Positions 10,039 through 63,299 of a stretch of DNA of 64,000 nt are shown piece after piece; the first letter of the stretch is position 1, and every line of letters begins with the position of its first letter. Position numbers and translations under genes: made by a program. The notes below the pieces were generated by a model that saw only the letters and a program-made list of their open reading frames with translations, made no database searches and was not told where the DNA came from. Source of the DNA: Owenia fusiformis (taxonomy: Eukaryota; Annelida; Polychaeta; Sabellida; Oweniidae); the NCBI GenBank assembly GCA_903813345.2, contig CAIIXF020000006.1, positions 35,626,436 to 35,690,435 of the forward strand, given 5' to 3'.

Positions 10039-10161
10039 TCAAATATTCATGGCATCAATGTCCGGGGGGTTGAAATAAAACTTCTTTCTCAATGAAGATC
10101 GGAAATATGGCATTTGTTTCTCGCCAGTCGAAATTGATCTGTCTGCAACAAGAGCGTTGAT
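10039..10161 (-). CDS. last caspase exon with stop codon
   Basis: This is the terminal coding exon, phase 0 in, 40 codons plus TGA. The acceptor (tgtctatttttcag) leads into INALVADRSISTGEKQMPYF and then RSSLRKKFYFNPPDIDAMNI. The pattern KQMPxxxSSLRKKFYF is the normal C-terminal strand of caspase p10, so the protease domain is complete to its end. A possible polyadenylation signal (AATAAA on this strand, 9498-9503) lies about 540 bp downstream. The assignment is strong. Confidence 0.88.
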   Translation of the reverse strand: MNALVADRSISTGEKQMPYFRSSLRKKFYFNPPDIDAMNI

Positions 10162-10617
10162 CTGAAAAATAGACAGGTATGTCTGATTAGACAATGCCAA
10201 CTAAAGAAAATATTTCTGCTTCATTATTATTTATTTTATTAGTAATTATTTTATTTATTGATGCATAAATGGAAAACATATTCGTAGATTGACAAACAAT
10301 TGGTGTGTGATTTCTTGTATTTATGTACAGAATACTTAGATTGAAGACTTAGTTTAAGTTGTTGTTCCCTTTGAAGATCTCCTTTTGGAAATTCTATTTA
10401 AAGGAAATAATTATGTACAATATATATGCATGCATATTTACACTGGTCAAATGCATGCAATAAAATACCGTTGTGTGTTAGTCTTCTTGGCATCAATTTT
10501 GTCATGGCCGAGGAGCAATTTTGATAGGTTATTCTTATTTTTCATTAAATCATGAGTGCCAACATTGTAGTTAAGTTTGTTCATGACTTAACACTTATAT
10601 GAGCCTGCTCGGGATCT

Positions 10618-10896
10618 TTGCAAGTAAGGCGTTGCAGGATTTACGTAAACTATTTTGAACTATGTAACTACTGTATTCTATGCACATATACAATAGCTAG
10701 GACATATTTGCCCGATCTTTCAGCCTCAGATTTATATCCTTGGAGGTACCTTAAAGATAATGTTTATGATGACAGAACAGACACTTTTGATGCTCTGAAA
10801 CATGTGAAAAGGACCGTTGTGGCACAGATGCAGGCAATCCCTGTGGCAGAGTGTGTTTGTGTCATAAAAACTGCTTGTAGAATCATGTATGGTTAG
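10618..10896 (+). pseudogene. Tc1/mariner transposase 3' fragment
   Basis: An open frame ends with PDLSASDLYPWRYLKDNVYD then RTDTFDALKHVKRTVVAQMQ, close to the PDLSPxDFFLWGYLKDxVY ... TxxELKxxI pattern around the third catalytic acid (Asp of SASD). Only the C-terminal third is present. It lies in the last intron of the caspase portion, opposite in orientation. Confidence 0.65.
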
Positions 10897-11143
10897 AGCA
10901 TAATGTCAAGCACCTACAGCATGTCTCGGAATTGAGCTGTGTGGATATCTCATTGAGATTTAGAACAAAGATGTAACATTGAATACAGCTTTAGTGAACT
11001 ACATTTTATGGTGAAGGTAGGTAGGTAGGAGGTAAAACAATGGGTAACGTTTGTTTGTGTCACCCAGTATTTGATCTTTACTGGAATAATTGTGCATTCG
11101 TAAATTTTTAATCTGACTTTCCCAGCTTATCCAAAGTATTTAC

Positions 11144-11253
11144 CTTCGAAGACATTGTGAGGATGTCCTCCTCGACTGCATGCTTCTCAAAGATGTTCAG
11201 CATTTCCTGAATAAACCAGGTCCCTGCACTTATTACACGTTGTGCTGAATAAT
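11144..11253 (-). CDS. caspase small-subunit core exon
   Basis: A 110-nt exon, phase 1 to 0, with acceptor atattgtttcag and donor TCGAAG|gtaaat. It reads YSAQRVISAGTWFIQ and then EMLNIFEKHAVEEDILTMSS. GTWFIQ corresponds to the GSWFIQ strand of p10. The Arg in YSAQR aligns with the S1-pocket Arg of the usual VSWRN segment, although the neighbouring Trp is replaced by Gln. FEKHAVEEDILTM is the following helix. It was found by scanning for the WFIQ strand and checking splice sites. The combination of sequence match and phase makes it secure. Confidence 0.88.
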
Positions 11254-11947
11254 CTGAAACAATATCATTGTGACGGAGAATATGCCATATATTTAGGGTC
11301 GCATGGTATTTGTGATACTATATAAATATTTCATACTATTGATCACCTGTTCATCTTTCAATGATTTTAACAGGGTGTATTCCCCGAAGCCCAGAGGGGC
11401 AGAGGAATACGACCTTTGGAATCATTGAAAGTGCAACAGATATCCACCGAAAATAGTATACAAATACTGGATGATCAGGAGCTGGATATGGTAGAATACC
11501 TATTCGAGAAACAAATATTGGGCGAGGCGTAAGCCTACTGGTCAGTTGCAAAAACATATTTGGCAGTTTAAAAAATGGGTACCAGGGTAGTTTTAAAAAA
11601 GCCAGTTATGGCCAAATTACCAGCAGCTTAGAACCAATCAGATTTCAGTATCTAGACAAGGTGCATAATAATAAGAAATGTTTGTTTTATTACTATTCAT
11701 TGAACTAAAATGGAATGAACACATTGCTCATGTATCTACCAAAATATCACGAGAAGTCGGAATTCTTTACAAGGTCAGAATAAGATAAATCACATTGAAA
11801 TGATATCTACAGGGTGGTCCAAAAATGGGACACTCGTATTTCTAAAATAAAAATATTGATTTTATTTAAGAAAATATGTCATATTATATACCAATGGATA
11901 TTTGCTTATCTTTAATTTGGTATATCATAAGTTCAAATTGATCATAA

Positions 11948-12757: not shown

Positions 12758-13135
12758 TTAGAGAATTTTCGACATACGTTGTTTGAGAAACTTATAAGTA
12801 TACTTATACTTATAAACCCAATAAACAAGGTGTTTCATAATTTCCTAATTCGTCGGGAAATATCTCCTGGGACAGTAATAAAAGGGTAAATGGCATACCA
12901 TTCGTACCCCCTTGATGTAAAGCATGTTTAGTTGTGTCAAATGTGTTTTCTAGAATAAAATAGGCTAATATAGCACACGGGTTATAAAGATTTATCTACT
13001 CTCAAATATTATTTTTGTAGATAATCGTTTTGAATCACCTTGTCCAACCCAAAGTTTATAATGTGGTTATAATACTAAGAATACTTAGTAGTGTTATAGG
13101 CAAATAACATGCAGGAATATAATCGATATCTGAGG

Positions 13136-14084: not shown

Positions 14085-14147
14085 TCGGTAAATTCAATAT
14101 ATCAGATATATTGTATTTCCCTCGGATATACCCTGTATCAAAAACCT
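14085..14147. repeat. hairpin with GATACAGGGTATATCC arms
   Basis: TTTTTGATACAGGGTATATC at the left pairs with GATATACCCTGTATCAAAAA at the right, around CCCTCGGTAAATTCAATATA and its partial mirror. It is about 300 bp from the element at 13136-13787 and shares the CCCTCGG word with it. Non-coding. Confidence 0.75.
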
Positions 14148-16165
14148 CCCTTTAAATAACCTCTATATGTAACTATATACACCCGTATGGGTGTCAGTTG
14201 CCTGTACACTGGACATTGATATAATAGGTGAATAATCAACTATGCAAACTGTATATTCACCACACTCTTTCTGTTTGGAATGTCTAATAAGAACGAGAGT
14301 TTTCAGCTTTTTTCATATCACTTTCAGATTTACAAGACGAAAGGCCTGTGAATACGCCAGTTGAATAGGCCTTTTTCTGACGTCACAGGCATTGCTGTTA
14401 AATACGTCTTCTTATTTCTATGTCACGTTTAATGTATAGATCAATGAGAAGTGGGAAATATGACAGTGATATAATAAATGTGATTATTCCATACCAACCT
14501 GAGGAAAATGCCATTCTCATTGCGGTATATGGCACATTCCGCAGGTGAGCGTGATATATTACGCAAGTGAGAATGTGATACAGACAGCCTCGAAAACTAT
14601 GCTGGATTATCAATTCTGTTAAGAGTTTCAAGCACTAAAATATAAATCCTGGATAATAAGTTGCCTCAAGTTAAACAAATATTTGACGTATATCTGCGGA
14701 ATATGACATAATCACCAGCGAATATGATTTATACTTGTAACTTGTTTACCGCTTTTCGATCATTAACAGCTATATTGCAACAATATTACAACTGCCTCTT
14801 ACGACATTATTTTCCATAGGAAAATGAAATGACGAACTTTAGATGCAGATCATTTGCCATTAATCTTGATGAATACAACAACAAATTAGGTTAATTCGAG
14901 TATGTTCTAGAGGCCAGGGCAGAAATTCTTAACAAATGGTGTATACTCCTTTTGACAACATTTTCAGTTAATGGAATGTCTTGGACGAAACTCTCAGCTA
15001 ATATGAGGTTTTGTATAGAGGTAAACAGTTCTTTTTTGAAGGGTTAGCCCTATCAGAGGGAAAATATTCACCCGAAGGAAATTTTGATATTATGTTGTTT
15101 TGAAAGTTATATACATTTAATAAAATATTTATTTAAAGCGTGAATGATGCTGATTACATTGATGGAATTTGAATAAAAGGGCAATAAGGATTTACCCCAA
15201 GGGGCAAATTTATAGCCCGTTTTTACTTTTTTAAGCATAGCGTTTCTACAAGACTACTGACAAGGGTACTGACAAAAGAAATGTGGAGAGCCAAATACCT
15301 GGCCTTGTAGTCTTGAAAGAACCAAAGGTATTTCTTTGATGATTGCCTTGAAAAAATTGGTGATTTTCTGAAAATGATATTATGATATACTGCTAGCTGA
15401 CCCCTATGGTTTTAACATGTATCTCTCTTTGTTAATATACTTGTGATTCAAGTATAAACCCAAGATGGAAAACTTATTTAAGCTAAGTTTTAGGAATGTT
15501 TGAACTTTCGTGCATGTTAAAGTATAAAAAATTGTAAAATATGATGACTCAAATCGACAAATTTTATGTATACCCGTGTATACCCTATAAAATCGCCCCT
15601 CGCCTAAATATCATTTTTCTTAAGTTCACCAATTTTTTCCTCTTCAAGGCAGTTACCAAATAAAAAATTCGAAAAGATTTGAATTACAGGTACAAAGCTC
15701 TCTACGTCTATAAAGCTCTCTCTCTTTCAATTTTTTCAACAACCTTCACTATCTAATAAAGGAAAGTTATGTCTTAAAAGGTAAAACAAATGGGCAATAT
15801 ATGGGTAATTCTTTGTGCTATTACATTTTTAAGTGCAATCAGCATCATTAACACTTAGTTAAAATGATTTTATACAAACGAATGAGGTCATTGCGTTTAT
15901 TCATCTATTTTGACTAACAGAAACCATGATGTCAACGTTTTCTTAGGGTGAATTTTATTCCTTATATGATAGGAATGAATCATGAGCGTGGTTTAAGCGC
16001 TAAAAAGAGCTTCCTACCGCTTTGCAAAACTTCTTATTAGCTGATAGATTCGTCGAATACAACATTCTCTCTAACTGCAAATGTGGTCAAAGTACAAGTG
16101 AGTATACGCCATTTGTTAAGAAAATCTGTCCTGGCCCCTAGAGTAAGTATTGGTTTTCAATCTAC

Positions 16166-16294
16166 TTTCTGTCGTGGCATATCCTATCAAGAAATCTGCC
16201 ATAGGTAGAGATGCAGCAGAGCTGTCTGCTTCCACCTGTTGTACTGAACAATCAACCGATCGCTCATGTGATGTAACGCCATCATCCTCCCTAC
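16166..16294 (-). CDS. caspase inter-subunit linker and start of small subunit (p10)
   Basis: A 129-nt exon, phase 1 to 1, with acceptor aatattatttcag and donor ACAGAAA|gtagat. Joined to the p20 exon, it continues the active-site loop as SREDDGVTSHERS, then the linker DCSVQQVEADSSAASLP, then MADFLIGYATTE. ADFLIGYATT is the hallmark opening of the caspase p10 subunit. VEAD followed by Ser is a plausible autoprocessing site between the large and small subunits. It lies 10.5 kb from the p20 exon, across an intron full of MITEs. Phase and the order of caspase motifs support the link strongly. Confidence 0.85.
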
Positions 16295-16949
16295 CTGAAA
16301 TAATATTAAAAATAAATATGTATGCACAAGTGTCAAAAGGAAAGGACCAACAATTGTTACAGAACACAGCAAGAAAAACTAGACATCAAAGTCACAGGGA
16401 GCGATTCTGTAGAATGCCGGTCCTCGCCACGGCAGCATAAATGAAAAAAAACTGGAATACAATTTGAAAAAATCGATATCTCAAGCATGGTTTTTACTTT
16501 ATGCAAATTTTACAGGAAAATGTATATGTCGGCTCCCTAAATGTAAAACAACAACGTTTACGGAATTTTACTTAAAACGTTACATCATTTTACGGTAAAG
16601 GTCAAAGTCAAAGTTTTACCCTATTTCATCTTTCTAGGTAATGTGGAACATAACTAAGCCTATTTTGAATCGAAAGTATCAATTTTGATTTTTGAGTTTT
16701 TTTAACCTTTTCAAGATGTCTGATTCAAAAACGGAAGCATAAATTGAATAAGGGGCTTCTATACGTACTTTATATTTGCTAAGCCTTGGGATGAAATCAT
16801 TTTTTTTTTAATTTTGTCCCACTGGGATGCCCCATTTTTCAAATTTGGGGAACCCAATTTAAAAAAACGGAAAATATGTTAAATGGGAATTGTGAGGGAC
16901 GACATATGCAAATTTTGGATTAAAAATACAAATGGTCGCTCACTGTACG

Positions 16950-24259: not shown

Positions 24260-26820
24260 TCTGTTATTGGCCATCAATAAAACTATATTTATATTGTGAG
24301 CATTTATGGGTTTTGATAATAATTGGCTTTATACATGTATGATTAATCAAATGTCATATTGTATCATGTTGGCTAAATCGTTTCAAGTGAAATATTATTT
24401 AGAACTGAAATCGGGGTTCGCTTAGTTTGAGTCAGGGAACAATCACACAGACGGATTAATTAATATTTGTTTTGATACATGAGTATTATAGGTTATAGGC
24501 AGTATCATGAGAACCAAGTAAACGTGTATAGGATTATTTTTTGTTTATTCGGAATTGAGTGAACCATCTGTAGTTTTAATTAAGGATCAATAAATACATC
24601 TAATCAAGATCAAATATTAGAAATCTATTTTTGACTGGATAAATTTTTGTTCGAATGTCAAACAGAACCTTCACGTTCTTTATTCATTTGGAACTTTGGT
24701 TTGAATTATTTCAATCAAATGTGTGTTGATACCCCGGGCCAATGCCATTAATTGACAAAATGTTGCAATACATCGCACGCTCGGTCTTAACTGTGTTCAT
24801 CGACGGGAGCCGAGTGAACGAAGATGGTTGCAATAGGGGGGGGGGGCATTATTGTCTTTATTACAAATTACTTTTATACATTATAACATACATAGTAAAC
24901 GCGACCCGATCGGGGAAGGGATTGGGGTTGTGCACAATTTGCTATCACTTTATACATGTTTTATTGCCAAATTAATATGAGTAAGCTGGAGTAACATAAA
25001 TATTTATTTAGTATTTTGTTACCACACATCAAAAGGCGCATTTGAAGTTCAGAAAATGCAAGAAGACTTGGCTAGACATTATGTACTTACATATTTATAT
25101 GTTACGTATTTATTTTGTATTCAATTCGAATTCTCGCACTCCTTGAACCACCCCCACCCCTTGGCTACGGGTATAAGTACATTCGGCACACGGAGAGAAT
25201 AATATTAGACTTCTGCAACGCAACTAATAAGAGAGACCTAAAATGAAAATAATGTAACAAGTGCTCTACTTTGGTGATAAAAATAACTGTTCCTGTAAAA
25301 ATATACAATTGTAGTCCATCACAAAGTTCATTTATTTCATGAAAGCGTCAAGGGACAATGCATCTAAACACTAAGATAAACAATTAATTAACTTCTGAAG
25401 AAACATCCTGTAGTGGAAAAAAACAAATGGCCTTTCATAACGGATTAGAATAGCCAGTCTGTCTGATTGTATAATATATTAGATACATTTTAAATTCTTT
25501 GGGAAATGAAAAATAGTTTTTTTCTGGCTGTTTAATGAAAACATAAAAATAAAAAGATGAAAAATTCCCATTCATTAACATCTACATACCCCTAGTGGTA
25601 TGGGCCCTGTGATTGCTACAAATGGACATGCATAATAGATGATGTGTTGTGTTTGAAAGGTGGCTTTGCCTCCATGTTTTGGTTAATAAATGATATTATA
25701 AACTTTATTGATCGTGAATTCACCTTTCCAAATTCAAATCCCAAATAAATAAAGCACACAATTCAAGCGTGACACAAAAAGAGCAAAACTGAAAACCCTT
25801 TAACCTATAGTGCCCGACATTATGTTAATAAATAATTTCTACATGTTGAAATATATTGCTATTTGATTGAGTTCAAGACAAAACTTTTTGGAATTGTTTC
25901 ACATAATGTAATATTCCTCGGATTTGGTGCATACAGATGTTTTACAATCAGAGACAAGGGTCTTATACGGGGTATTCTATTTGGCAAACCAATCAATAAG
26001 TAGTATTAAATTATCACAAGGTAAATAACTTAATCCCTTTTAAAATTGCGGTTAAGTAGCATCTTAATTACAGTAAAGAAAGATCATCTAGGAATTATTT
26101 CTGCCTCTCATTCCTTAAACCGGCTTCGTTAAACAGTGTCAAGATATTTAAGTCAGAGCCAAAAACAAGACTATTTTTATATTTAAATCCCCTCACCTTG
26201 TCAATGTTTATGTCTGCATCTGGTTTTTCCTAGCTTTTGGAGGGAGACAATATACACATAGATTAATTACTGGCCATGGACAGGGGGCACAGAAACGAAC
26301 ATTCTGGGATCATTAGGGATAATTGGGGAAGGGGGATGGGTGGTGTTGAATAGAAAAGTCCGGGAGTGAAGTTAAGGGGTCCTGAAATCTTCCTTTTGAT
26401 ATTTAGTGCTTGAATGAAGACTTGTTTCCACTCCACGCACTCTAGTAGAATTTAAATATTTGATCCAAAGGAGTTATTTTTAATCAAAAATCAAAAATGA
26501 TTAAATGCTTGCTGCATGCAAACATACTACACTTAAATTGAAATGCTTTACTTAGTTAATTAACGCAGTAGTCACATGACACACGGATAAGACGTACCTG
26601 GGCCGAGGATAAGCAATATTTATCTCTCAATAGGTATGATAAGTGTGAACTTTTTATTCCTGAGAATTAGTAGTTAGTAGTGCTTATTACTTATGGATAA
26701 GACATTAAGTATTCTTTCTTAGTAGTGCTTAGAAAATAGTGTTTCACGTTGTGGTAGTTACACAATATGTATAACTTGCCATATTTGGAGCTTTTAACTA
26801 ATATCCATAACAATACTTAC

Positions 26821-27213
26821 TGCTTTGACAAGCTTGGAATATGATGATTTTGGGTTTGCCAGCTAGTTTCTTGCAGTTTTCTCCATTGAAGTAGTTGTAT
26901 ATCTCTTTGTACGGTACTGTTTTTCCATCTACCCCATAGACAGCATCTACAGCACCATGAGAGAGAATCACCAGAACGAAAGAGTCAGCATGATCTTGAG
27001 TACTTTCTTCAGTCAATGTTTTTCTAATAGCTCCAGCAGTCAGATCATTCTTAACACATACTATATACTTGAATCTTGTAAACACTCGTTTTAGTCTATC
27101 GACATCGTGTACTGTGCCATAACGGTTCGGCATTCTCGGGTAGAAGTCGAAATTGTTGATAATTAAACAGCGGCCTGTGGGCGATGAAGCATTGGTATAG
27201 GGAGCTGATTCTC
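26821..27213 (-). CDS. caspase large-subunit (p20) exon with catalytic His and Cys
   Basis: This exon encodes nearly the whole p20 subunit of a clan CD cysteine protease. The acceptor (tatgccttactttcag) leads into the codons for ESAPYTNASSPTGRCLIINN and FDFYPRMPNRYGTVHDVDRL. Next come FVLVILSHGAVDAVYGVDGK, where His of LSHG is catalytic, then KTVPYKEIYNYFNGENC and PKIIIFQACQS, where the Cys is the nucleophile. NRYGTVHDV supplies the substrate-binding Arg of the usual R-x-GT-x-x-D pattern. The active-site pentapeptide reads QACQS instead of the common QACRG. The donor is strong (AAAGCA|gtaagt). Length is 393 nt, phase 1 to 1. The ATG just upstream (27236-27238) lies in the acceptor tract, so it is probably not a true start. 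Effector cutting activity is expected but not proven, given the QACQS variant. Confidence 0.9.
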
Positions 27214-28001
27214 CTGAAAGTAAGGCATATTTAGACAATTGTATTGGTGTATGCTTTCATGAATTATACACCTCTGCTTAATTAACTAGATCTCAACTAA
27301 TGTATGATTGACGTAGAAAAATTACAATTTAGCGTACAATTTGGCGTATATTTACAAGGGTGTGTAATGCAAACTACTGATAACACTCTCGCTCCCTTGG
27401 CACAAAAGGGAAACAACTAAAATGATAATTATTTGTGCATTACTATTATAAATCTCGATGACAACACCAATGCAAAATTTTAATACCGTAATGTTTGGTA
27501 CCCTTAGAAGGAAGTGTTGAAAAAACCTAAAAGAGGTAGTTAAAAAGTAAGGGTAGACGACAGTTACTCGAGAAAGACGAGAACATGTATCGTGCATGGT
27601 ACAAAAAGCCAATTTTATTAGGAATACACATCACATACGTTTAGATTTTTATTCCTATTCACTTACTTCGGATTCGCTTAGTTTGCATTTCGCCTGTTTC
27701 TCATCGTTAGTGAGTGACTTCGCTATTAATTTTTAATGATCATTCTTTGAGGCATAGGGGAATAAAGCCAATAGTTGATTGTATATATTTGTATTTTGAA
27801 GTTAATGTATTCATATCTTATTGTTTCTATTTGATTGCTTTGTTGTTAGACATAAAATTTAGGTTTTTAAATGAGTAATGCTGACAGTCAATAAAGGTGC
27901 GAATCCAAATACCCAATTTCAAGGTAAAATACGTACGATACAATTTTAGTTTTGTTCCGTATATTGGAACCATATGGACGTCAATCTATTTAGAACCTTA
28001 C

Positions 28002-28014: not shown

Positions 28015-29370
28015 CTAAAAGATATAAGAATTTTTTTTCTGTACAGACAAATTTCCCTAATTACCAATTTTTTGATTACCGAATTCATTCTTTAGCCTAT
28101 TTGTCTCATGGTACTTCTTAGAAATCTGCAACTCCAAGGAGTAGTAAATCCCAACGAATACTATATTCATGAATCTGTATCTGTCACAATATAATATTTA
28201 CCAGCTACTCCACGCTTGGTTAAGTTATTGACTGATATTAAAAGACGTACATTAGAGATATGTCAGAATTTCCACTGAAAGCATTTGGGTGACCATTCAA
28301 AGGCACAAATCATAATTTAAGACAATATTTGAGACCTGATATCTGGCCGGGTGTCACAAAGAAAGTAAGACACTTTTGACAAGTATTTTCTCAGCGATTG
28401 ATAAACTAAATTCATTAAAAATTTGTACAAAGTAGTCCAGGAGTATTCCTAGAAAGTAATAAAAAAATATGATAAAATCAAGTAATTAAAGCCCACAATC
28501 ACATTAGGCGACCATTTTGAATTACACGAGGCTTGAATCAGAAAAAGAATCGACTCTTAATTGCCTTTCATTTGAGTATAACAAAGCTATACTTCAGAAA
28601 GCCAAAATTCCTGTTTTCCCGACCCCCCTCCCCCCCAAGACATGGTCCTTATGGGCCAGGGTGAAATAGATAGATGTTGTGAATATACTACTAAGATTTT
28701 AGATAAAAATATTTATTACTTGGTTTAAAATGAAAAACATAGATTTTCGCAAAAAGTTCCCGCGATTTTTAAAGCAGCGGCCATCTTGAAAAAACTATAT
28801 ACCAATATGTACATCTTTTCACAAAATATGAAGAAAATCCGTCCACTATTCTGGAAGGACGGACGGATGAACGGAGGGCTTCACTTTATCCCGAATATCA
28901 TTATTTGTGATAAATATACTCAGGACACCTTAATCTTCAACTTCCTATGTGTCTTTCTGGGAGATTGTATAAGATGTCATTCTTGTACATTTATTTGAAA
29001 CAAGTATTATCCTTAGAACTCTTCTTAGAATTTTCTGTTATAATAATCTGCCTTATTCAGAAACCTTTTAAAGATTCATTCATCCCATTTTAGTAAGATT
29101 GCAATATTTATTTCTGCATCACTATCGGAAATGTTTTAAGATCCAGGCATTATTAAAAAATATCGCGAAATAGAAACAAGAGCGTTTCTTTTGCATATCC
29201 TATAGAATTAAGACAATTGTTGTGCATGAAAACAAAGTGTACGCATTTAGTCATAATTTGGGAGTAATGCAAGGCTAGACGATCCGAGTATCTCAAACGG
29301 GCAATTTAGTACTTTATAATACCATAACTGAGCTAAAACAATCTATCATATTATGCAAAAATATGCCTAC

Positions 29371-30588
29371 CATGTGTGCAGTGTTGTACCATAGTTTATA
29401 TTGATCCAGTTTTATCGGATGGTGGTGAGATTTACATTGTTTGTAACCACGATTAATATCCTTCTCTGAAATAGGCACTAAAGTTCGCTTTTCCTCTTGC
29501 ACATTCGGACAATTACACCTTACAGATATCTCAGGGTCGACATTTGGACAATAGTTCTTTATGGTTGTCCTCAGCATTGCCTCGATGTCCTCGCGGATTT
29601 TGATACACATAGCGTTGTTCTCCTGATCCGTTCTTTCTTCCAATGTTTGGTGGATTTTCAAATCTAGGTGATTGTCTTCAGCTAAAAGTGTTAATACACA
29701 ACAGCCATCACCAACTTCAAACCTACCATAATCAAAGAACACATTGCCATATAAAGGCCATATATTTTTCAGGCAGATTTTGGCGACTAGCCTATGAAAT
29801 AGCCCTTTGGGGAGAAAGGTGAATTTGTAGAAAAGCGTGCCACCAACTAATGGTTTGTCTCTAATGAAATCACCGGGCTCTGGCTTGGGAAGCAAACAAG
29901 GCACAAAGAATTGTCTTTTCCCTTGATTACTTTCCTGGTTATTTTCAAATGGACAGATCAAGTCAAAACGCTGCATGAGTTCGATCAGTACGTCGCTATG
30001 AATCGATATATCAGCGTAAAGCTTCTTCCACACGGTTTCAATAAATTCTTCCTTAAGCACACCATCTTTATCCAGTTTCTCCCAGACGGTGCTGCCAAAG
30101 ATGTTCCGTCCTCTCGAGTCTCGATGGAACTCGGGAACTGTTATAATACTCTTGAATACATCGATGAGCCACTGAGGATCAAGGATAACTAGATCACTGA
30201 GGCTGCTTTCATTGAAGAAAATCATGTCTCCGACTGAATGATAAAATTCAAGGCAAGCTGTGACAGATGCCTTGTCCATTCCTTCTTTCAAACCAATCGC
30301 TTTGACTTCTTCAAACTTAAGGAAATGCACTTGTGCTCCACCTTGGGATTTTACTTTTAATCCACGCAGATTTTTCTCAAGAAGCAACCATTTAACAGGT
30401 ACCTCCTGCCCCCAGAATCCTTGACCTTCTGCGAGCTGCACGATTGTCTCCTTAAGTTCGTTTAACTCTTGGTCGTCATCGGAATTGTTATCGACTGCGA
30501 TGTATGGTTTGTGAACGTGATGAAAGTAGATTTTGCCGTGGAAGTTCTTTTCTATATGGCGAAAATAGTTGTTTATGTACTGATCGGT
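29371..30588 (-). CDS. COR-domain exon of the Death-Roc-COR gene
   Basis: A 1,218-nt, 406-codon exon, phase 0 to 0, with acceptor aattattttcag and donor CACATG|gtaggc. It encodes the COR (C-terminal of Roc) domain, the dimerisation and regulatory partner of the GTPase. Visible landmarks are YINNYFRHIEKNF at the start, PVKWLLLEKNLRGL, the LEFYHSVGDMIFF segment, LVILDPQWLIDVFKSIITV, the VWEKLDKDGVL winged-helix-like stretch with LMQRFDLICPF, and FFVPCLLP. The COR-B half begins near LFYKFTFLPKGLFHRLVAKI. The tail holds Cys/His-rich CNCPNV and QCKSHHHPIKLDQYKLWYN, as in invertebrate ROCO proteins of this class. There is no internal stop and the exon is unusually long. Its phase-0 end does not match the phase-1 start of the caspase exon downstream. 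Confidence 0.9.
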
Positions 30589-31023
30589 CTGAAAATAATT
30601 TAGAGATGATTTAGTGTAGTCAACCAAAAGTCATAGATGAATTTCATAACGTTCTAATACTTTTCCATTTCACCAAATTATTGACTCCATTTTGTCCGGC
30701 AGGAATATATACGTTGCATTAACAGGTTTCTAAGGTCCTTTGGCAAAAAAGATTCTTCCCGAAGATGTTCTTGTGGGACAGATTTTTATACCAGATTCGC
30801 GAAATTTCGCAGTACATTCACCAGTATCAAAATTTGCGCGATTTGAGGGACATTTACCTAACTTTGCATGATTTGGATATTTCGGGACCATTAACAAAAT
30901 GACATTCACATACATTTGCTGGACATTTACCAAAATTCTCGTGTCCCGAAAATTGGTCAAATTTTGATAAAAGTTGCGGGTAAATCACGCTCGTCGCGGG
31001 TCGGTTGACAGCACTGTAATGTG

Positions 31024-32503: not shown

Positions 32504-32634
32504 CTTTAACTTTTCCACATTAAGAGCATCTTTGTGTGTTCCGACTATGATGACAGGGGGACTCAGTGATTCAGATTCAGGAGATGACTTCCCAGCATGA
32601 GTGTGGATTGAGTTCAACCAGTAATCGAGGTAAT
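32504..32634 (-). CDS. Roc domain exon 5 (G4, THKD)
   Basis: This exon carries the guanine-specificity motif of the Roc GTPase. The acceptor (cattttcatttatag) leads into YLDYWLNSIHTHAGKSS, then PPVIIVGTHKDALNVEKLK. VGTHKD corresponds to the G4 N/TKxD motif, and YLDYWLNSI is the helix before it, typical of ROCO proteins. Phase is 1 to 0 over 131 nt, linking exon 4 to the COR exon without a frame break. The donor (TTAAAG|gtccaa) is the weakest in the gene, but translation past it meets a stop within four codons, and the next exon begins in the right phase. An N-terminal insert of Ser/Pro/Glu (SSPESESLSPP) is seen. Identification as Roc is firm; the exact 3' end is less so. Confidence 0.8.
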
Positions 32635-32741
32635 CTATAAATGAAAATGAGACGATCCCGTTTTTTTATAAATACCAAATAGGAATTATCGAAATGAACA
32701 ATCAGTTATTAATTGATGCTGTACATTCTGAGTATACACAC

Positions 32742-32943
32742 CCTTGACCTTTTCCGGGGCAGCGGTGTCGGGTTTTGGTCCATCACGGGATTGTCGTATT
32801 GTCTTAACTTTCTCATCCAGGTCTTTAGATAGGTCCACGACCAACAGATAAATGGCTCTGTTCGTTAAGAACGTCTGGTGAGTTGTGTAGAAGACGTGCT
32901 GTCCACCAAAGTCCCAAAAGGATAATTTTAGCCGCTTTTCCTC
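32742..32943 (-). CDS. Roc domain exon 4 (G3, DxGGQ)
   Basis: This exon carries the G3 switch-II motif of the Roc GTPase. The acceptor (actttcacatcccag) leads into EEKRLKLSFWDFGGQHVFYT and then THQTFLTNRAIYLLVVDLSK. DFGGQ followed by xxFYTTHQxFL is diagnostic for Roc domains of the ROCO family, and the hydrophobic YLLVVDL strand follows as expected. The chosen donor is CAAGG|gtgtgt, giving phase 0 to 1 and 202 nt. An alternative GT lies eight bases upstream (AAAAG|gtcaag) but would not match the phase of the next exon. The C-terminal part (DGPKPDTAAPEKVK) is a polar linker. Phase and motif order agree with the flanking exons. Confidence 0.85.
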
Positions 32944-33125
32944 CTGGGATGTGAAAGTACAACAACAGATCAGAAATGAAATGACCATCACATATCACAG
33001 TTATAATTAATTAATCACGTACTAAAATGAGGTTTACTTTCTATTAATGACTATTTTCAATTATTAATTAAGTAACAAAAAGTAATTGCAATTATCTTCG
33101 ATTGATGAAGGCCTTTTGAACTCAC

Positions 33126-37021: not shown

Positions 37022-37174
37022 TAGTATCTGTTGTACCTATTAAAAATGCAGGAATCATTAGAATATTTTACCGATATAACGAATATTTTCAAAAAGAATA
37101 TCGAAACTTACTCTCAACTCTTTCTAGTCGTTCTTAAGTAAGGAACATACTATACATAGGTGTGATTGACTCAC

Positions 37175-37453
37175 CTTTTGCTTTAGTTTTCCATATGACT
37201 GAATTGCTTATGTCAATATAACAAGCTGATGGGTCAACCTGTATGCCATCTGTCGAATTGTGCTCCCTAGTAGAACCTTCATCCAGGAGACGCTTTTTCA
37301 GACTAGTTTTCCCAACTCCGTATTGCCCAACGATCATAACTCGAGTATGGTAGACCTCACGTGTTCCTTCCTCCCTTGCCTTCTGGTAGGCCTCTAAGTA
37401 TTCAGGGTTGCTGAATAGCTTCGCACGCCTGATCTCCCGTTTTTCATACCAAG
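37175..37453 (-). CDS. Roc GTPase exon 1 (P-loop) of the Death-Roc-COR gene
   Basis: This exon opens the Roc (Ras of complex proteins) GTPase domain of a ROCO protein. The acceptor (gttcattttag) leads into WYEKREIRRAKLF, a charged helical linker. Then comes the G1/P-loop GQYGVGKTSLKKRLL, which binds nucleotide phosphate through the GKTS segment. The NSTDGIQV stretch follows and corresponds to the switch-I Thr region (G2). The donor is strong (AAAAG|gtgagt). Length is 279 nt, phase 1 to 1. In ROCO proteins the Roc domain works as a GTP-dependent switch coupled to the adjacent COR dimerisation module. The P-loop is complete, so nucleotide binding is expected. A mariner element ends only about 150 bp downstream in the following intron. 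The link to the next exon is supported by phase and by the order of the G motifs. Confidence 0.85.
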
Positions 37454-38824
37454 CTAAAATGAACACTTTAATGCATGTAAATATGTGAATACAGCATACA
37501 TTTTATTTTGATTGTAAACCCTTTGTAAGGTTGTTTTTTTTATTTTTGATACTCTCTTTACCTCAGAAATGCTCAGATTGCAGAATTGCATCGTAAACAA
37601 AATTGTTGGGAGGAGTGTTATCACGATGGTTATACAATTGAAATTGATTTTTTAAATGCATCACTTGACTTACCTGACATTACCAAATCGCATCTAAAAG
37701 CGATATTGCACCAATTAAACAACTCTTCATTAGGAGAAAAAAGGATACGCAGATGGCGCTTAAAAGCATCATTGAGGAAGCAAAATGGAGCATTCCGGCT
37801 ATTTCTGACTAATCTGAGTCGAAAATAAACCCCAACAACATAAACAAAAACCTTCATTTTGATGGCATTCATAACAAAAACAAGTTCAAGAAATTAAGAT
37901 ATGGCATCTTGTGAACCCTACTGCATTTCTTTGTTTGACCAGATATTAACCTGGGCTCAGTATCTCAAATACATTGTTTATGGTACCTTTATTTTCCCAA
38001 ATAACTTCATGAGAGTGTAAATAATCAAATATAAAAACAAAATAGGCATTAGTCTACACATATAAAATAGAAAAATGGTAATTAGAAAAGTTTAAGGAAT
38101 ACAAATTTGCGGGTAGTAATGATACAATGTTTTGAAAACTACACGAGGCAGTATCATTTATATGATTGCACGGATTCTAACATTTGCTTAGCATCACAAC
38201 TACTTACACAAATGAAGTAACAAGTATGAAAAGTACCAATAAAGTGTGCATTACTTTGTTATTGAACGTTTCTTACATATGATAATATTTCAATGTAGCT
38301 GTCAGTGTATTTATTTTTGCTTTAAAATCCAGAAAACATTTTTATCTATAATGGTAAGGTAAAGGCGAGCACCTAGGGATTAAGAGAATGTCTTATCATT
38401 TACACTGACAAATCTTACATATTTTTCAAACCGATTAGAGTTATATAAAAAGAGCTTTGGAAATGTTGTCCTAAATATGATTCATTACATTCATCTACAT
38501 AATATATAAATGTGAAACAAAATAGCATCTTAATCATGTTGTGAGTGTCACATACATTCCTCGAAAATAGGCAAATTAGATATTTGTTTTATTATACAAC
38601 TGTCAAGTTGAATATCCTCAAAAGTATTAGTTCATGTGTTTACTCACTGATAAATACATTTATATACTGTACTAGGTTAAAACCTAAAAATGAATGTATT
38701 TCGAAAATTTCCGAAAGTTGTGAATATCGCTAAATGCGCATCGGTTGTCTATAAGCCATGTTGGCATAGCCAGTGGATATCGCCTTATCTTTCATTACGT
38801 GTGATCCGGTTTTGACCAATCACA

Positions 38825-55350: not shown

Positions 55351-55560
55351 ATATATCATATTTAGACAGTTATACTTATAGTATACGCCTTATATTTACA
55401 ACACATGGATTATTAGTGATACTAAACGGATATGTGAAATTTGAATATAAACAAATAAGCCAAAACACTGATATTTGGAAGTGAAATTATACTGTACTTT
55501 ATGTAATTGCAAACAAAGAAAAAGGGATCGACCATTTTGTAAATATAAAATAAAAGCAGC

Positions 55561-56706
55561 ATGACAAACAGGAACAGGAAAAAATCTTCAAAAGACAATA
55601 CTGACTGCGATGAAATGAATGAATTAAAGACCCGATTGGATGAAGTAAATACAACTGTACAAAACACTGATGATAATATTGAGGATTTGAAAAAAACCGT
55701 TGATGATCTTAAAAATGAGAATTTATTCTTACGTGAAATCCTTGAGGTCATGGAAGGGAGAATTTGGAAAATTGAACATAAACAAGATGAGACCGATGAT
55801 GCTATAGATGATATTCGTGTACGATCGATGAAAATGAATCTGATATTTCACGGAATAGATAAGCCAGACATTGATGAACATGTGAGTAAAATTAGATCTG
55901 TCCTTGTTAATGATATGAAAATTCCAAAGGAATTTGTTCACCCACACAAGCCTTTAGATGGCCAACCAGGTCCTGATTGGCAAATACAAATAGACGTAGC
56001 TCACCCTATAGGACAGGGACAAGGTGTTATACCCATGGTGGCTAAATTTACAGATCGTAGGGCTGTTGAAAAAATCATGTCTTATGCACATAATCTAAAA
56101 GGCTCAAGAATTAGTGTATCACGTCAACTTCCCGACACACTGCGTGATCGCAGATCTGCTCAGATACCTATGTTAAAGAAGTTAAAATCTGAAGCCATTG
56201 ACAATCGTCGAGATCCAAGAGAAGTCTCCCTTCACCAAGCGACACTTAAAGTGAGAGGTGTCAAGGTAGATCCCCACTTTGATGAGAAACCATTACAAAT
56301 CCCAATCACAGACCTTGACCCCAACATTGATGACACCTCTACAAATCACACTAATGTCATCAGTCATAGTGGAACTTCCATACAGGGCCACGTGGCAAAG
56401 GCCAAGACTACTAAGCAAGCCGCAACAGTCATTGGAAGATTATACAAATCTCGATCACTTGCCCGTGCTAGTCATCATTCTTATGCGTACCGAGTTCCTG
56501 GAAATACTGGCGAACTTGTAGAAGGTTTTAGCGATGATGGTGTTTGGGGCATTGGTAGTGATATCTTAAATTTGATGAAATCTATGGAGATTACAAACGG
56601 AGTGATTATCATGACAAAGTGGTCAAAAGGGCCCTTAAATAAACATAACCATGCATCTTATATGAATCAAGTGAAGGATTGTGTCAAGCTTGGGAATTTC
56701 AATTGA
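55561..56706 (+). CDS. non-LTR retrotransposon ORF1 (L1 ORF1p-like) with C-terminal IMPACT/YigZ-like domain
   Basis: An intact 381-codon ORF inside the 25-kb intron, antisense to the host gene. Residues about 20-80 form a coiled coil rich in Asp/Glu/Lys and Leu heptads (trimerisation in L1 ORF1p). Residues about 87-185 resemble the RRM of Transposase_22 proteins (MKMNLIFHGI, MVAKFTDRRAVEKIM). Residues about 190-250 match the C-terminal nucleic-acid-binding domain (RISVSRQLPDTLRDRRSAQI, PMLKKLKSEA). The final 95 residues read ASHHSYAYRV, EGFSDDGVWGIGSDILNLMK and GVIIMTKWSKGPLNKHNHAS. That is the conserved spacing of the UPF0029/IMPACT/YigZ fold (A-H-x-AYR, DDGE-x-GxG, V-x-T-x-W-x-G). The usual Glu of DDGE is Val and the GG of the last motif is degenerate. 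The L1-like part is firm; the IMPACT-like assignment is by eye. Confidence 0.85.
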   Translation: MTNRNRKKSSKDNTDCDEMNELKTRLDEVNTTVQNTDDNIEDLKKTVDDLKNENLFLREILEVMEGRIWKIEHKQDETDDAIDDIRVRSMKMNLIFHGIDKPDIDEHVSKIRSVLVNDMKIPKEFVHPHKPLDGQPGPDWQIQIDVAHPIGQGQGVIPMVAKFTDRRAVEKIMSYAHNLKGSRISVSRQLPDTLRDRRSAQIPMLKKLKSEAIDNRRDPREVSLHQATLKVRGVKVDPHFDEKPLQIPITDLDPNIDDTSTNHTNVISHSGTSIQGHVAKAKTTKQAATVIGRLYKSRSLARASHHSYAYRVPGNTGELVEGFSDDGVWGIGSDILNLMKSMEITNGVIIMTKWSKGPLNKHNHASYMNQVKDCVKLGNFN

Positions 56707-58138: not shown

Positions 58139-59521
58139 ATGGAACTTCCTTTTGCTAATTATTTAGATGATACTATAGATGTAAATAATTATGAACATTT
58201 GCTTTTTGATCCAAGAACAACACAATTGAATAAGGAATACAATGAATTGACTGAACAAGATATTGTGAACCAATCTATTATGCAATCATGCAAATACTTA
58301 TACCCAGAATCATTAAATTCGAAACTTCAATCACAACATAATGTGTCAATGAATTTTGGTTGCATTAATGCAAGAAGCCTATCACATAATTTTTCAAAAG
58401 TTGTTAATTTAAATGAGATACTGAATAATCAAATTGACATTCTTGGAATTACAGAAACATGGCTCAAAGAAAATGATGAACAAAATTTTTTAATGAATGG
58501 CTTTTATTCTGAATTTGTTTCAAGACAGGATCGAATCGGTGGAGGGGTAGGTATATTTATTCGCGATATCATTAAGTACAAGCTGAGACCAGATCTAATA
58601 ATTGAAAATGACTATGATACCCAAGCACTTACAGTTGAAATTGAGCAGTTAAATGACAAAAACATATTAGTTTCAGTTATCTATAAACCCCCTGATGTTG
58701 ATATTAGCCAATTTAACAAAGACCTTACACAATTTCTGAATATAATGACCAAGGAAAATAAAGAAATATTTTTGATGGGAGACTTTAATATAAACATACT
58801 TAACACTGATCATGAAGAGACTGCTAACTTTGTGAATATATTATACTCTTTTAACTTATATCCAACCATTTTCAAACCAACACGAGTTACTACACAAACA
58901 GCTTCCTTGATAGATAATATTTTTACCAATTCTCTTAAGGCCAGTCAATCCGGTATAATTTTAACTGATATTTCTGACCACTTTCCTATATATGTAACGA
59001 CTGACTTACCTATTAATAAGAAAGTGAGCAAACGCATTTCTTTTCGCCAAATGAAAAACAAAAATCATATTACCTTTAAATCACGCCTCTCTGAACTTGA
59101 CTTTTCCCAGCTATATGAATTTGATGATGTCAATTTAGGCTATGCATATTTTATTGAAAAAATTCAAAGTCTTTATAATGAATGCTTCCCGGTAACTACT
59201 AAATATATTAAATATTACTACAACAACAAAAAACCTTGGCTGACAGAAGGAATTTTGACCTCTATAAAATTTAAAAATAAACTTTACATTAATTACATAA
59301 AGCACCCTACACAAGATAAGCTTGAATCTTACAAAAAGTATAAACGCATTCTAAGGCAAACTATTCGACATGCAGAAAAACTTCATTACAGATATAAATT
59401 TGAACAATCATCTGGTAATATAAAAACTCGGTTAATGGGATTGGTCAATCGACCATTAATGTTACGCCTTTTGGACATCCATTATCAATTCGCCCACATT
59501 ACAACACGTTCTAGTTCTTGA
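58139..59521 (+). CDS. non-LTR retrotransposon ORF2, endonuclease domain only (3' truncated)
   Basis: This 460-codon frame starts with about 75 poorly conserved residues and then an apurinic/apyrimidinic-type endonuclease, which nicks target DNA for target-primed reverse transcription. Motifs are FGCINARSLSHNF, DILGITETWL (catalytic Glu), GGGVGIFI, VSVIYKPP, FLMGDFNIN (Asp/Asn), TQTASLIDNIF and ISDHFPIYV (Asp-His). A post-endonuclease region, KKPWLTEGI and YKKYKRILRQTIRHAEK, is typical of the CR1/L2/Jockey group. After about residue 425 similarity stops and the frame ends in unrelated sequence. No reverse transcriptase follows, so the copy cannot mobilise itself. This ORF and ORF1 are in the same orientation and probably one element. 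Confidence 0.85.
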   Translation: MELPFANYLDDTIDVNNYEHLLFDPRTTQLNKEYNELTEQDIVNQSIMQSCKYLYPESLNSKLQSQHNVSMNFGCINARSLSHNFSKVVNLNEILNNQIDILGITETWLKENDEQNFLMNGFYSEFVSRQDRIGGGVGIFIRDIIKYKLRPDLIIENDYDTQALTVEIEQLNDKNILVSVIYKPPDVDISQFNKDLTQFLNIMTKENKEIFLMGDFNINILNTDHEETANFVNILYSFNLYPTIFKPTRVTTQTASLIDNIFTNSLKASQSGIILTDISDHFPIYVTTDLPINKKVSKRISFRQMKNKNHITFKSRLSELDFSQLYEFDDVNLGYAYFIEKIQSLYNECFPVTTKYIKYYYNNKKPWLTEGILTSIKFKNKLYINYIKHPTQDKLESYKKYKRILRQTIRHAEKLHYRYKFEQSSGNIKTRLMGLVNRPLMLRLLDIHYQFAHITTRSSS

Positions 59522-59623
59522 TTTCGATGAGCCAGTCAACACACAACATACAAGCGTCTTCACTTCATACAAAACCGTCTAAGTTTTCACTGTTAGGCGA
59601 TTTTAAAGACAAAATAGGATATC

Positions 59624-60640: not shown

Positions 60641-60779
60641 AAAGCCCATTAACTTTTCTTTGTTTGAATTATGCCTTATTTCACAACCAAACGGGGTTAG
60701 TTAATCATGTACTAAATGGTCTCCGTCGTGGTTTTAACATAGTTTCAAAGGCCCACAGCACCCCGCTATATGGCAATTA

Positions 60780-62900
60780 ATATGATATTCTATGCTACAA
60801 TCTGACGGTCTTTATTTTGACGAATATCTTAGAATTACACATTTAATTTTGATCTTTATGTTAGTATAGATCTCCAAAACTTCGTCTTGGAAGAAGATCT
60901 TTCCACAGTTCACAAGGAGATATGCCGAGTACTAAAATTTTAGTGCGTACACCTTTTCAGTAAATTTTAGTACTAAATGAGTTTAACTAGACTCTGCACG
61001 CAGGGTATGCGCAGGTGAGAATTTACAAAGCGCCACCTTTTGACAATCGCTTTACTTAAGCTCGATGTTGTTTTGATCATGAGGGCTGAAATATAGTCGC
61101 CATCTTAGTTAAGATTTTTGTAATTTGTTTGTTATTTGTCAGGTTCGACTAGGGTCAGATTTTGCGTTTAGAGCCATGTAATTTGCATTGATTTATATTT
61201 GATGAGACTGATGTAGGGTCAGATCTAATTATTTGTTTATAATAGAACTTTGAAACTTTACTTGATTTGTCGTGTTGATTGTTTGTAGTCATTGATCGAT
61301 GGTTTAGATGGAATAACAGTAAAATGGCCCTATGATTAACTTTCTGATAACTTCATTTCTTCATTCTGTTCCAAATCATTCTTGTTCAATTAGTGTTTTC
61401 AACTTTTATCTTTATTCAAAGATGGCAGCACCTTGCATATATAGTCAAGCTATCAATCACTTTCAGCTCAAATTTGATTCACTACGTTGCCATGGCCGTT
61501 CAGCTTACCACGCTACCATTTGTTCGCTCGTTCGGTCCAGTTTGTTTGTTTGTTTGTACGGGTTGCTTTGTTGTAGTATTGATTAATTGATTGATTGGGC
61601 AGCCCGTACGTGGCAGTTTCGGGATTAAGACCGGAGCTGTTACAATTTATATGGTGACCTAAATACAACTCTTTCCCTCATTATCTTATTCGCATTCAGT
61701 GCCAGTAAGGGCCGTTAAGAAAGGGGACCATAATCCCTGGGGGACCATCATTTCTTTCACAAATGTGGCTTAAAATAGTCAAAAATAGTGGTAACTTACC
61801 ACTGGTAAGGGAAAGATTGCTGAACAGATATTTTGATGTCTCAAGAAAATGTACCTAATAATGGAAAGGGAAGGAACATAAGAATGAAGAATGTTTTCCT
61901 ATGTATTGAAAAAAATGGAGAAACAGTTTTGAGAGCTGTACTTTTCTTCTTATCACCACAATTTTTCAGACAATCTGAGGGGGTGTTCTTATTGGCGCTA
62001 TGTAGATATTATTATTTTCAAGAAGAATATAAAGATATGTTTATCGAACTTTTCACGCATAGCTCTACCCTTTTACTAAACTTTAGACACAATTCATTAT
62101 GCTTAGTGTTATTCCCGCAATGTCAACTTTTATCCTGGTCATGTAAATTATATGATTGTTGAATAAATAAAATGATTGAGTGACATATGAGAAGTCTGGC
62201 ATCTTGTTATCTCACTATGTAAACTTACTTTGATGAATTAAGGGAGCATTTTGAATATGATCTATAAATGGGGAAGCGCAAAACATTTAGCCATCTCTCT
62301 CCTGAATTAATCATGATCTTTTGTTGAATTACAACAATACTTTAATATACCTAAAGGGGCGTCAACAAAACGTAATTATAACTGAAAAACTATTCTGGCC
62401 AATATTACCAGGATATGTTGTCAGTTGTGCTCAAAATTGTATAATTACGGAGCAAATCATGGGACATAATACAAAACATTTGGTTCTAAAATTGCTTACA
62501 TTTTCATATAACTAATTAACTTTAGCTTGCATCTATGCCTTATTGAGATACATTCCTCCTTATTAAAATGTTTTCGACGAATACCTGAGTATTTCATTTG
62601 AATCTTAATCTCTGTTAATATGGACCCCCAAAACTAGCGTTCTTTTATTTACATTTCATCAACTTATTGAAAATTAAATTAGGCATTTGTTCTCAACCCA
62701 TATGGATACTCGTACATATTCAACATAATATATAGATTCACAACATGATATGTTTTATGTTTTGACAATGATATCCACAACTTGTCATTTTACGTTTGAT
62801 TTTCCAACATTTACACTGCATGGAATTACGGACCGTATGGAATAGTCCAAGACAAGTCATCAACATTGAATGCACCTACTCATGTCATTATCGTATTGAG
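60780..62900 (+). repeat. further copies of the intronic repeat family
   Basis: 60820-60920, 61740-61900 and 62570-62760 carry the modules described at 53400-55350. A copy of the dispersed motif AACTAGACTCTGCACGCAGG is at about 60978. The remainder (61000-61740) is unique-looking AT-rich sequence with a short GTTTGTTT run near 61540. No gene was recognised. Confidence 0.6.
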
Positions 62901-63041
62901 CCATTCACGTTTTACCGTTATTTCATTAAGATTTGTTACTTTTTACAACCAGCTCTAGACAAGTCATTGACATTGAATTTGTATACTATCATTCTCTTAA
63001 CGACCTAAACCATTTACTGTTATAAGGTTAACATCTGTTAC

Positions 63042-63296
63042 CTGTAAGACGAGCAAGATCTCTTCTTCCTGCCATTCTGAGGGCATCATCCAGTACTTTC
63101 CATTGGTTGACATCCTCAGGTTGTCTCTGCTTCCAGCTTAACAGCATTTTGACTCCCCATTGTTCCTCATCATGTGGATTACTCCTCTTTATGTTGTCAA
63201 TCTCTGCTGATGTGAGCCCGAGAAGGACACCCACTTTCCTAACATCTTCAACCAACCTTTCTCCAATGAAACGCAGTGTCCCGTCATAAATTTCAT
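63042..63296 (-). CDS. Death-domain exon of the Death-Roc-COR-(caspase) gene
   Basis: This exon encodes a complete Death domain, a six-helix homotypic interaction module that recruits other Death-domain proteins in apoptotic and NF-kB signalling. It starts after an acceptor (tttacattttgaacag) with the codons for DEIYDGTLRFIGERL and runs through VGVLLGLTSAEIDNIKR, the EEQWGVKMLLSWKQR core and DDALRMAGRRDLARL. These match the usual Death-domain spacing, with Trp residues in the middle helices. It ends at a donor (ACAG|gtaaca). The exon is 255 nt, phase 1 to phase 1, so it can be inserted between phase-1 introns. The next recognised exon on the strand (37175-37453) also begins in phase 1, and the junction codon would be GCT. 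No start codon belongs to this exon, so the 5' end of the gene lies further right, outside the window. Membership of the same gene is inferred from strand, phase and family architecture across a 25.6-kb intron. The Death-domain call itself is firm. Confidence 0.8.
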
Positions 63297-63299
63297 CTG

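Follow-up and report, generated by a model that had tools for sequence, protein, structure and literature searches.

Exons and domains in the window

The window, a stretch of 64,000 bp of Owenia fusiformis DNA, carries on its minus strand open exons for a Death domain, a Roc domain, a COR domain and a caspase, in this order. The order and the motifs agree with the preliminary description, while its count of eleven exons was reduced to nine, which could be placed individually (Table 1). No counterpart of the Roc2 exon found at a sister locus, indicated in the following as A, was detected in the window. Pfam matches of the window ORFs extend over 63028-63300 for Death, 37134-37502 and 32686-32994 for the P-loop and DxGGQ parts of Roc, 29314-30630 for COR-A and 26798-27256 for Peptidase_C14, with the values reported in Table 1.

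Table 1. Exons, and one exon remnant, located in the window
Feature	Position	Strand	Phase	Evidence or remark
Death-domain exon	63042..63296	(-)	1 in, 1 out	Pfam Death 2.3e-8, splice sites read
Roc1 exon, P-loop GQYGVGKTS	37175..37453	(-)	1 in, 1 out	Pfam Roc 3.6e-6
Roc3 exon, DFGGQ	32742..32943	(-)	0 in, 1 out	Pfam Roc 2.2e-10
Roc4 exon, THKD	32519..32634	(-)	1 in	weak donor, low end uncertain
COR exon	29371..30588	(-)	0 in, 0 out	Pfam COR-A 6.9e-18
Exon X remnant	27667..27697	(-)		3' half and donor kept; aligned to X of F8 and B
Caspase p20 exon, LSHG and QACQS	26821..27213	(-)	1 in, 1 out	Pfam Peptidase_C14 1.3e-33
Caspase p10a exon, ADFLIGYATT	16166..16294	(-)	1 in, 1 out	
Caspase p10b exon, GTWFIQ	11144..11253	(-)	1 in, 0 out	
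Caspase p10c last exon, SSLRKKFYF and stop	10039..10161	(-)	0 in	

The Roco motifs G1, G3 and G4 (GQYGVGKTS, DFGGQ and THKD) are all present, and the COR exon, 406 codons long, is the next exon found after Roc4. The gene carries in this way the sequence hallmarks of a Roco (Roc-COR) GTPase, for which GTP binding and hydrolysis, as well as nucleotide-dependent dimerisation, are predicted. On the caspase side, a p20 exon with the catalytic His and Cys (LSHG, QACQS) is accompanied by open p10a, p10b and p10c exons, which gives the p20 plus p10 composition of a Peptidase C14A member with predicted protease activity. The active site pentapeptide QACQS deviates from QACXG; the caspases of loci A and B would carry QACQG once spliced. 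Intron phases are consistent inside each of the two parts, Death-Roc-COR and caspase, as previously described, with the exceptions of Roc4, which has a weak and uncertain donor, and of Roc2, which was not found. The earlier statement on phases omits the mismatch between the two parts, COR being in phase 0 and p20 in phase 1.

At the protein level, the window Death exon is 67-79% identical to four Death exons located at least 20 kb upstream of other Roc1 exons. The joining of an N-terminal Death domain to Roc, proposed earlier, is compatible with the phases in the window, at locus B and at a further Roc-COR locus, F8, but the Death exons are located about 20-36 kb upstream of Roc1, dN equals or exceeds dS in six of six pairs, so that no purifying selection is seen, and none was found at locus A in the stretch examined. 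The window Death donor scores 3.5 and has no G at +5. No convincing coding exon was found further upstream, either for the window copy (E) or for the Death exons indicated as F, I and B1.

Exons predicted to connect COR to p20 at sister loci

Within the same genome, 150 of 207 Roc candidates were scored and, of 22 COR matches, the loci of eight Roc-COR genes were examined. At two of them, locus A (C6:24.35 Mb, within 24,346,391-24,356,100) and locus B (C6:35.90 Mb, within 35,885,800-35,905,600), two small exons sit between COR and p20, a basic one, X, and an acidic linker. X enters in phase 0 and leaves in phase 1, the linker enters in phase 1 and leaves in phase 0, and COR is joined to p20 in frame. 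At locus A, where a possible start Met opens the Roc1 exon, ten phase-matched exons plus p10c form one Roc-COR-caspase frame of 1091 residues, in which Pfam detects Roc (2.5e-18), COR-A (1.9e-20) and a full-length Peptidase_C14 (1.7e-60). At locus B, where Roc2 was not located, the chain is the same from Roc3 to p10c, with matching phases and p10c open to its stop. A single open frame is thus complete at A and present from Roc3 on at B. Contig C336 lacks X; its linker acceptor is in phase 0, which keeps COR, linker and p20 in frame. The order of these exons, their phases, their open frames and their conservation are read directly from the sequence, and they support the prediction that Roc-COR is joined in frame to a caspase, in one polypeptide, at two sister loci at least.

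X, a short exon, was revealed by listing phase-constrained candidates, followed by cross-locus alignment. It was chosen from 7 such candidates in A, where the null mean is 1.9, and from 16 in B, where it is 9.0. It is conserved among A, B and F8. The A and B copies are 64% identical, ungapped and in donor register, a value matched at none of 14783 other offsets of a 15 kb stretch of A and in none of 20000 codon shuffles; B and F8 agree at 42 of 51 aligned positions of X, and their flanks at 52 of 71 and 48 of 70. In these two loci X is 58 and 52 bases long, with phase 0 in and 1 out in both and acceptor/donor scores of 3.1/5.1 and 3.1/4.6, respectively. The sites of X at A are modest (acceptor 1.0, donor 2.4). 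X is followed by the linker, whose acceptor phase fits, at 450 bp in A and 1.45 kb in B; the linker acceptor of A is the lowest of the 12 listed (0.0). The COR donor has a weak score at A (0.6) and an intermediate one at B (2.2, the 23 listed B sites spanning -0.1 to 8.1), and a stop is found 5-18 codons beyond it at A, B, F8 and in the window, so that COR could be the last exon at these four loci; the 24 codons inspected at C336 are open.

X is also present at F8, with no caspase within 26 kb; F8 shares sequence, in addition, around positions 28125-28065 of the window. At B, an alternative partner for X could be the Death exon of the caspase gene C, whose acceptor is also in phase 1. In gene C, the layout is Death-linker-caspase, the linker being preceded by a Death exon and not by COR; a search with a Death HMM, trained on nine members of the family, revealed no hidden Death exon between COR and linker. 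A direct junction of COR to p20, phase-compatible at A and B, requires skipping of the linker and is not preferred given X.

The COR-p20 junction of the window copy

In the window the COR donor is in phase 0 and the p20 acceptor in phase 1. Direct splicing is out of frame, leads to a stop after 16 codons and was ruled out; reading through the donor also ends at a stop, 18 codons on (29314). For this reason the junction cannot encode the fusion in the window, where a single open Roc-COR-caspase frame is not found. Candidate exons leading from phase 0 to phase 1 in the COR-p20 interval numbered 0 at strict thresholds, against a null mean of 0.9, and 3 at relaxed thresholds, against 4.5. Alignment to X of F8 and B did not reveal in the window the phase 0 acceptor and the 5' half of this exon. 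The window p20 acceptor aligns with the linker acceptor of B (score 26, reached in 0 of 2000 random windows). The X acceptor is missing and linker and p20 appear to have merged, so that Roc-COR and caspase no longer share a frame. The window copy would then most likely yield a Roc-COR protein, possibly with Death, and the caspase, if expressed, would be a separate product. The Roc-COR-caspase fusion suggested by the preliminary description is not supported for the window copy; with the joint out of frame there, it is predicted for sister copies instead, through the conserved connecting exons of A and B and the fitting phases of C336. The case is cautionary, as the order of domains on one strand suggested a fusion in the window, while intron phase says otherwise.

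The two modules were also compared for divergence, using Roc1, Roc3 and COR on one side and p20 and p10b on the other; the COR row of locus G3, taken in a wrong frame with 30 stops, and the C336 p20, cut by the contig end, were left out, and the p20 of caspase D starts after an assembly gap (97 codons). dN/dS ranges from 0.12 to 0.42 for both modules over the 25 pairs compared. Between A and B, both predicted to be fused, dS values overlap (Roc-COR 1.52, 1.18-2.25; caspase 1.01, 0.64-1.56). Between B and the window, Roc-COR is young (0.22, 0.17-0.28) and the caspase older (0.85, 0.62-1.39), which indicates that the modules have not always travelled together. The part found behind COR varies among loci, being a caspase at A, B and C336 and a Death domain at H37 and I47, while none was found at F8. 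C336 and C6:35.57 have a breakpoint immediately behind COR, which may be a real deletion, a haplotype difference or an assembly error.

Three other readings were considered. In the first, which concerns the window copy and is no alternative to the fusion at A and B, the window Death exon would be spliced either to Roc1 or, past Roc-COR, to p20, one promoter giving both Death-Roc-COR and Death-caspase proteins. Phases allow both joins in frame (Death 1 out, Roc1 and p20 1 in), and gene C has its Death-linker-caspase layout with the same phases. This reading is made doubtful by the 36 kb intron required, by the Death donor and the missing purifying selection described above, and by the lack of a Death exon in the stretch of A examined.

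In the second, regarded as unlikely, Roc-COR and caspase would be separate neighboring genes everywhere, the former ending at COR or X and the latter having its own first exon with a phase 1 donor. The discordant dS in B and in the window is in its favor, together with the stops beyond COR at A, B, F8 and in the window, the Death exon preceding the linker in gene C, and the modules standing apart: caspases C and D, which fall in the same clade, lack a Roc-COR neighbor, and no caspase was found next to Roc-COR at F8, G3, H37 and I47. X, however, has no start codon and keeps its phase 0 acceptor and phase 1 donor at A, B and F8, the linker acceptor fits, and the phases of C336 fit too, though without X. 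A 30-codon ATG frame at A was considered as a first exon belonging to the caspase and was rejected: its donor is poor (1.7), no counterpart of it is conserved, and both the frame and its faint 'STVY' resemblance to C336 look fortuitous. The C336 stretch is not shared with B.

Finally, it is very improbable that COR and p20 are nevertheless fused in the window, by way of an unrecognised exon or of about 1.9 kb lost from the assembly in the interval separating them. In favor of this reading, positions 28125-28065 offer a phase 0-to-1 candidate (acceptor 2.2, donor 1.3), in a stretch common to F8, the X donor is still compatible with the phase 1 p20 acceptor, and F8 contains, at the place where the window is shorter, additional sequence that includes an intact X. 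Against it, the relaxed candidates stay below their null mean, none of the three has a match at E <=1 in the loci searched, A, B and C336 (F8 shares the surrounding sequence as well), and the closest other p20 copy in the assembly is 83% identical (D, partial), leaving no second allele at hand.

The explanation considered probable is that the window copy belongs to a Roc-COR-caspase gene family, whose members arose by duplication and reshuffling, for the most part on a single chromosome, with fused sisters at A and B at least, and was itself broken by loss of the X acceptor. At A and B, Roc-COR, X, acidic linker and caspase would form one polypeptide, possibly with Death in front at B.

Relation to known systems and proposed mechanism

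DAPK1, a Roco protein, has a kinase. Like other Roco proteins, it carries a Death domain C-terminal to Roc-COR (PMC6337361), in a way similar to loci H37 and I47; it has no caspase, while the window, B and F8 have the Death exon upstream of Roc. Roc-COR genes with TIR and Death domains are found in sea anemones (PMC5094078) and Aplysia (PMC9334734), linking Roc-COR to immune and death adaptors in animals, but the relevant passages report no caspase joined to Roc-COR. In amphioxus, TNFR-caspase, LRR-caspase and Death-caspase hybrids, the last resembling gene C, join a sensor or adaptor directly to a caspase; COR and Ras are not among the domains named, and neither word occurs in the main text (PMC2575513). 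The expanded bivalve caspases are many, with unusual partners such as DSRM, FN3, PB1 and DD, and no Roc, a word with no match in either main text (PMC7836458, PMC10967218).

Close similarity is seen with bacterial AP-GTPase (Roc)-COR proteins, whose C-terminal effectors include caspase: according to PMC8195603, Roc, COR and caspase follow each other in one protein and copies within one genome carry different effectors, as in the Owenia family. N-terminal leucine-rich repeats are a feature of the bacterial forms, whereas the Owenia family is animal and intron-rich, with Death exons upstream of some copies. The novelty claimed in the preliminary description therefore holds for animals, for which no Roc-COR-caspase protein is described in the literature searched, and not for bacteria, where this layout has already been published (PMC8195603).

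In the intact sisters, Roc-COR may act as a dimerisation device controlled by GTP/GDP, whose dimerisation would pair two caspase zymogens, similarly to the induced-proximity activation of initiator caspases; cutting of the acidic linkers would then free p20 and p10. Transcription, splicing, GTP control and caspase activation are here predicted by analogy with what is known of these protein families. In other proteins Roc-COR cycles between monomer and dimer with the bound nucleotide, and initiator caspases are generally thought to await a separate platform, such as the apoptosome, the inflammasome or the PIDDosome. The chances appear even that the family provides an animal, self-contained, GTP-switched death enzyme, with (Death-)Roc-COR-caspase in one chain and the layout of a bacterial conflict system, in which the part behind COR is swapped between copies, near-identical versions of a single locus included. 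Roc-COR and caspase on one chain would make the control of caspase proximity by GTP state directly testable in one protein, and the exchange just after COR between copies would preserve in nature the history of effector swapping, a notion that comes from the bacterial Roc-COR systems.

Roc-COR and caspase modules in the genome

In the 498 Mb animal genome, the window maps to C6:35,626,436-35,690,435. Related loci were found by whole-genome searches with Peptidase_C14, COR-A, Roc and Death, and some of them were fetched; they are listed in the table, together with the copies of X, a short basic connector exon. At four of the eight Roc-COR loci examined (A, B, the window copy E and C336), a same-strand caspase of one clade lies behind Roc-COR. 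The clade is made up of six caspases, including the C336 copy, which is cut, and those of loci C and D, which have no adjoining Roc-COR. Locus C has the layout Death-linker-caspase. On the 5' side of caspase D (C6:35.823-35.832 Mb), a 500-base assembly gap ends where the recognisable p20 starts, and may therefore hide a 5' partner. None of the remaining COR matches of the genome search is located less than 1 Mb from any of its caspase matches.

Loci containing related modules, and copies of connector exon X (X positions are local to the fetched stretches)
Feature	Position	Strand	Length	Phase in/out
Locus A	C6:24.35 Mb	+		
Locus B	C6:35.90 Mb	+		
Locus C	C6:35.92 Mb	+		
Locus D	C6:35.83 Mb	+		
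Locus E	window	-		
Locus F8	C6:35.57 Mb	-		
Locus C336 (= F336)	unplaced contig	-		
Locus G3	C3:4.03 Mb			
Locus H37	C6:37.48 Mb			
Locus I47	contig C47			
X of A	9340-9427		29 codons + 1 base	0/1
X of B	16891-16948		19 codons + 1 base	0/1
X of F8	16067-16118		17 codons + 1 base	0/1

Connecting exons and predicted reading frames

An acidic linker exon is conserved between COR and p20 at A, B and C336, and is found behind Death at C. At A, B and C its acceptor is in phase 1 and its donor in phase 0; COR ends in phase 0, and this mismatch seemed evidence against any fusion, a reading which was reversed once X was found. X emerged from a phase-constrained listing of short candidate exons between COR and p20, where it is one of 7 candidates in A (1.9 in shuffled sequence) and one of 16 in B (9.0 in shuffled sequence). 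Conservation rather than this listing is what singles it out. The X exons of A and B share 64% base identity, ungapped and in donor register, a level reached at none of 14,783 other offsets and in none of 20,000 codon shuffles. Those of B and F8 agree at 42 of 51 aligned bases, a modest excess over the flanks (52/71 and 48/70).

When X and the linker are included, locus A reads as a single frame that starts at a Met within Roc1, stops after p10c and spans 1091 residues; Roc, COR-A and a caspase domain of full length are recognised in the predicted chain. At B the frame is open from Roc3 through p10c, no Roc2 exon having been found for this locus. Compared with B, C336 is devoid of X and of the first linker bases; its linker acceptor is in phase 0, fitting COR directly, and the following p20 acceptor is in phase 0. 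The predicted Roc-COR-caspase gene of A has a Bcl-2 gene as its same-strand neighbour: Bcl-2 family exons (C6:24.3446-24.3454 Mb; Pfam Bcl-2, 9.7e-25) stop roughly 1 kb before Roc1.

In the window, Death, three Roc exons (P-loop, DFGGQ, THKD), COR and a four-exon caspase (p20, p10a-c, with the stop at 10039) follow each other on the minus strand. All nine exons are open, with Pfam matches to Death, Roc, COR-A and Peptidase_C14; the Roc2 exon, known from A, was not found there. The preliminary description had joined COR directly to p20, and for this copy the fusion so drawn fails: COR (30588-29371) is exactly 406 codons long and in phase 0 at both ends, whereas the p20 acceptor (exon 27213-26821) is in phase 1, and the joined frame meets a stop after 16 codons. 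Reading through the COR donor also leads to a stop, after 18 further codons. A stretch present at F8 is absent from the window, and the acceptor and first half of X are gone with it, leaving the X donor. The window p20 acceptor aligns with the linker acceptor of B (score 26, against a best of 23 among 2000 random windows), so that linker and p20 seem to be merged in this copy. Among the five p10b exons compared, that of the window diverges most, sharing 50-55% protein identity with the others.

Module exchange or homogenisation, constraint and the Death exons

Comparison of B and E revealed a dS of 0.22 (0.17-0.28) for Roc-COR and of 0.85 (0.62-1.39) for the caspase, while the B caspase is nearer to that of D (dS 0.42 over 135 codons), which has no Roc-COR. 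Since Roc-COR is young but the caspase older in this pair, and the B caspase is nearer to D, the divergences indicate that modules have been exchanged or homogenised between copies. For A and B, the dS of the two modules overlap (1.52 for Roc-COR, 1.01 for the caspase). One exchange is seen directly in the break between C336 and F8, which may be versions of one locus: their longest matches are 99.3-100% identical until some 20 bases beyond the end of COR, although identity falls to 88-89% in two of the three final 100-base steps of that exon. From there on C336 is B-like, with linker and p20, and F8 is E-like, lacking any caspase over the next 26 kb. The break could reflect two haplotypes, a recombination event or a fault in the assembly. 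Over the 25 pairs compared, dN/dS ranges between 0.12 and 0.42, which argues that Roc-COR and caspase are both under constraint when averaged over copies; this comparison does not address the window copy by itself.

Five Death exons (E, two at B, F and I) are in phase 1 at both ends and lie at least 20 kb upstream of a Roc1 exon. With a phase 1 acceptor on Roc1 at E, B and F8, a Death-to-Roc1 join is possible by phase. For the Death exon (63042-63296 in the window) and its relatives, dN equals or exceeds dS in all six pairs among E, B1 (one of the two at B), F and I, and F and I are alike at 232 of 261 bases within the exon (0.889), against 902 of 940 (0.960) in the preceding 1000 bases. Both observations weaken the case that the protein always includes Death, and suggest either fast, perhaps diversifying, evolution or lost constraint. 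At H37 and I47 Death is the last exon, and the COR donor is in phase 1. For locus A, no Death exon was found in the fetched stretch, nor any nearby among the genome-search matches listed. The two Death exons of B (C6:35.850 and 35.865 Mb) are about 15 kb apart and both in phase 1-1, making a protein with two Death domains possible.

Between the Death and Roc1 exons of the window, an open frame that matches endonuclease/exonuclease domains (58139-59521, +; Exo_endo_phos, 1.5e-12) is probably a LINE-type retroelement; a 385-codon open frame shortly before it (55549-56706, +; UPF0029, 3.5e-10) is possibly its ORF1 neighbour.

Known relatives and predicted mechanism

Bacterial AP-GTPase-COR proteins are described as carrying behind COR one of at least 24 domains, including caspase (PMC8195603). 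For amphioxus, LRR-caspase, TNFR-caspase and Death-caspase hybrids are reported, the latter two with cDNA (PMC2575513), and Roc-COR genes with TIR or Death have been published for sea anemone (PMC5094078) and Aplysia (PMC9334734). No animal Roc-COR-caspase is present among the literature matches listed, drawn mainly from open-access journal papers.

Initiator caspases are activated by proximity. A nucleotide-linked monomer-dimer cycle has been proposed for Roc-COR proteins, and dimerisation of CtRoco is attributed mainly to COR (PMC6337361). Given such a cycle and proximity-activated caspases, in a Roc-COR-caspase chain the GTP state would set caspase proximity.
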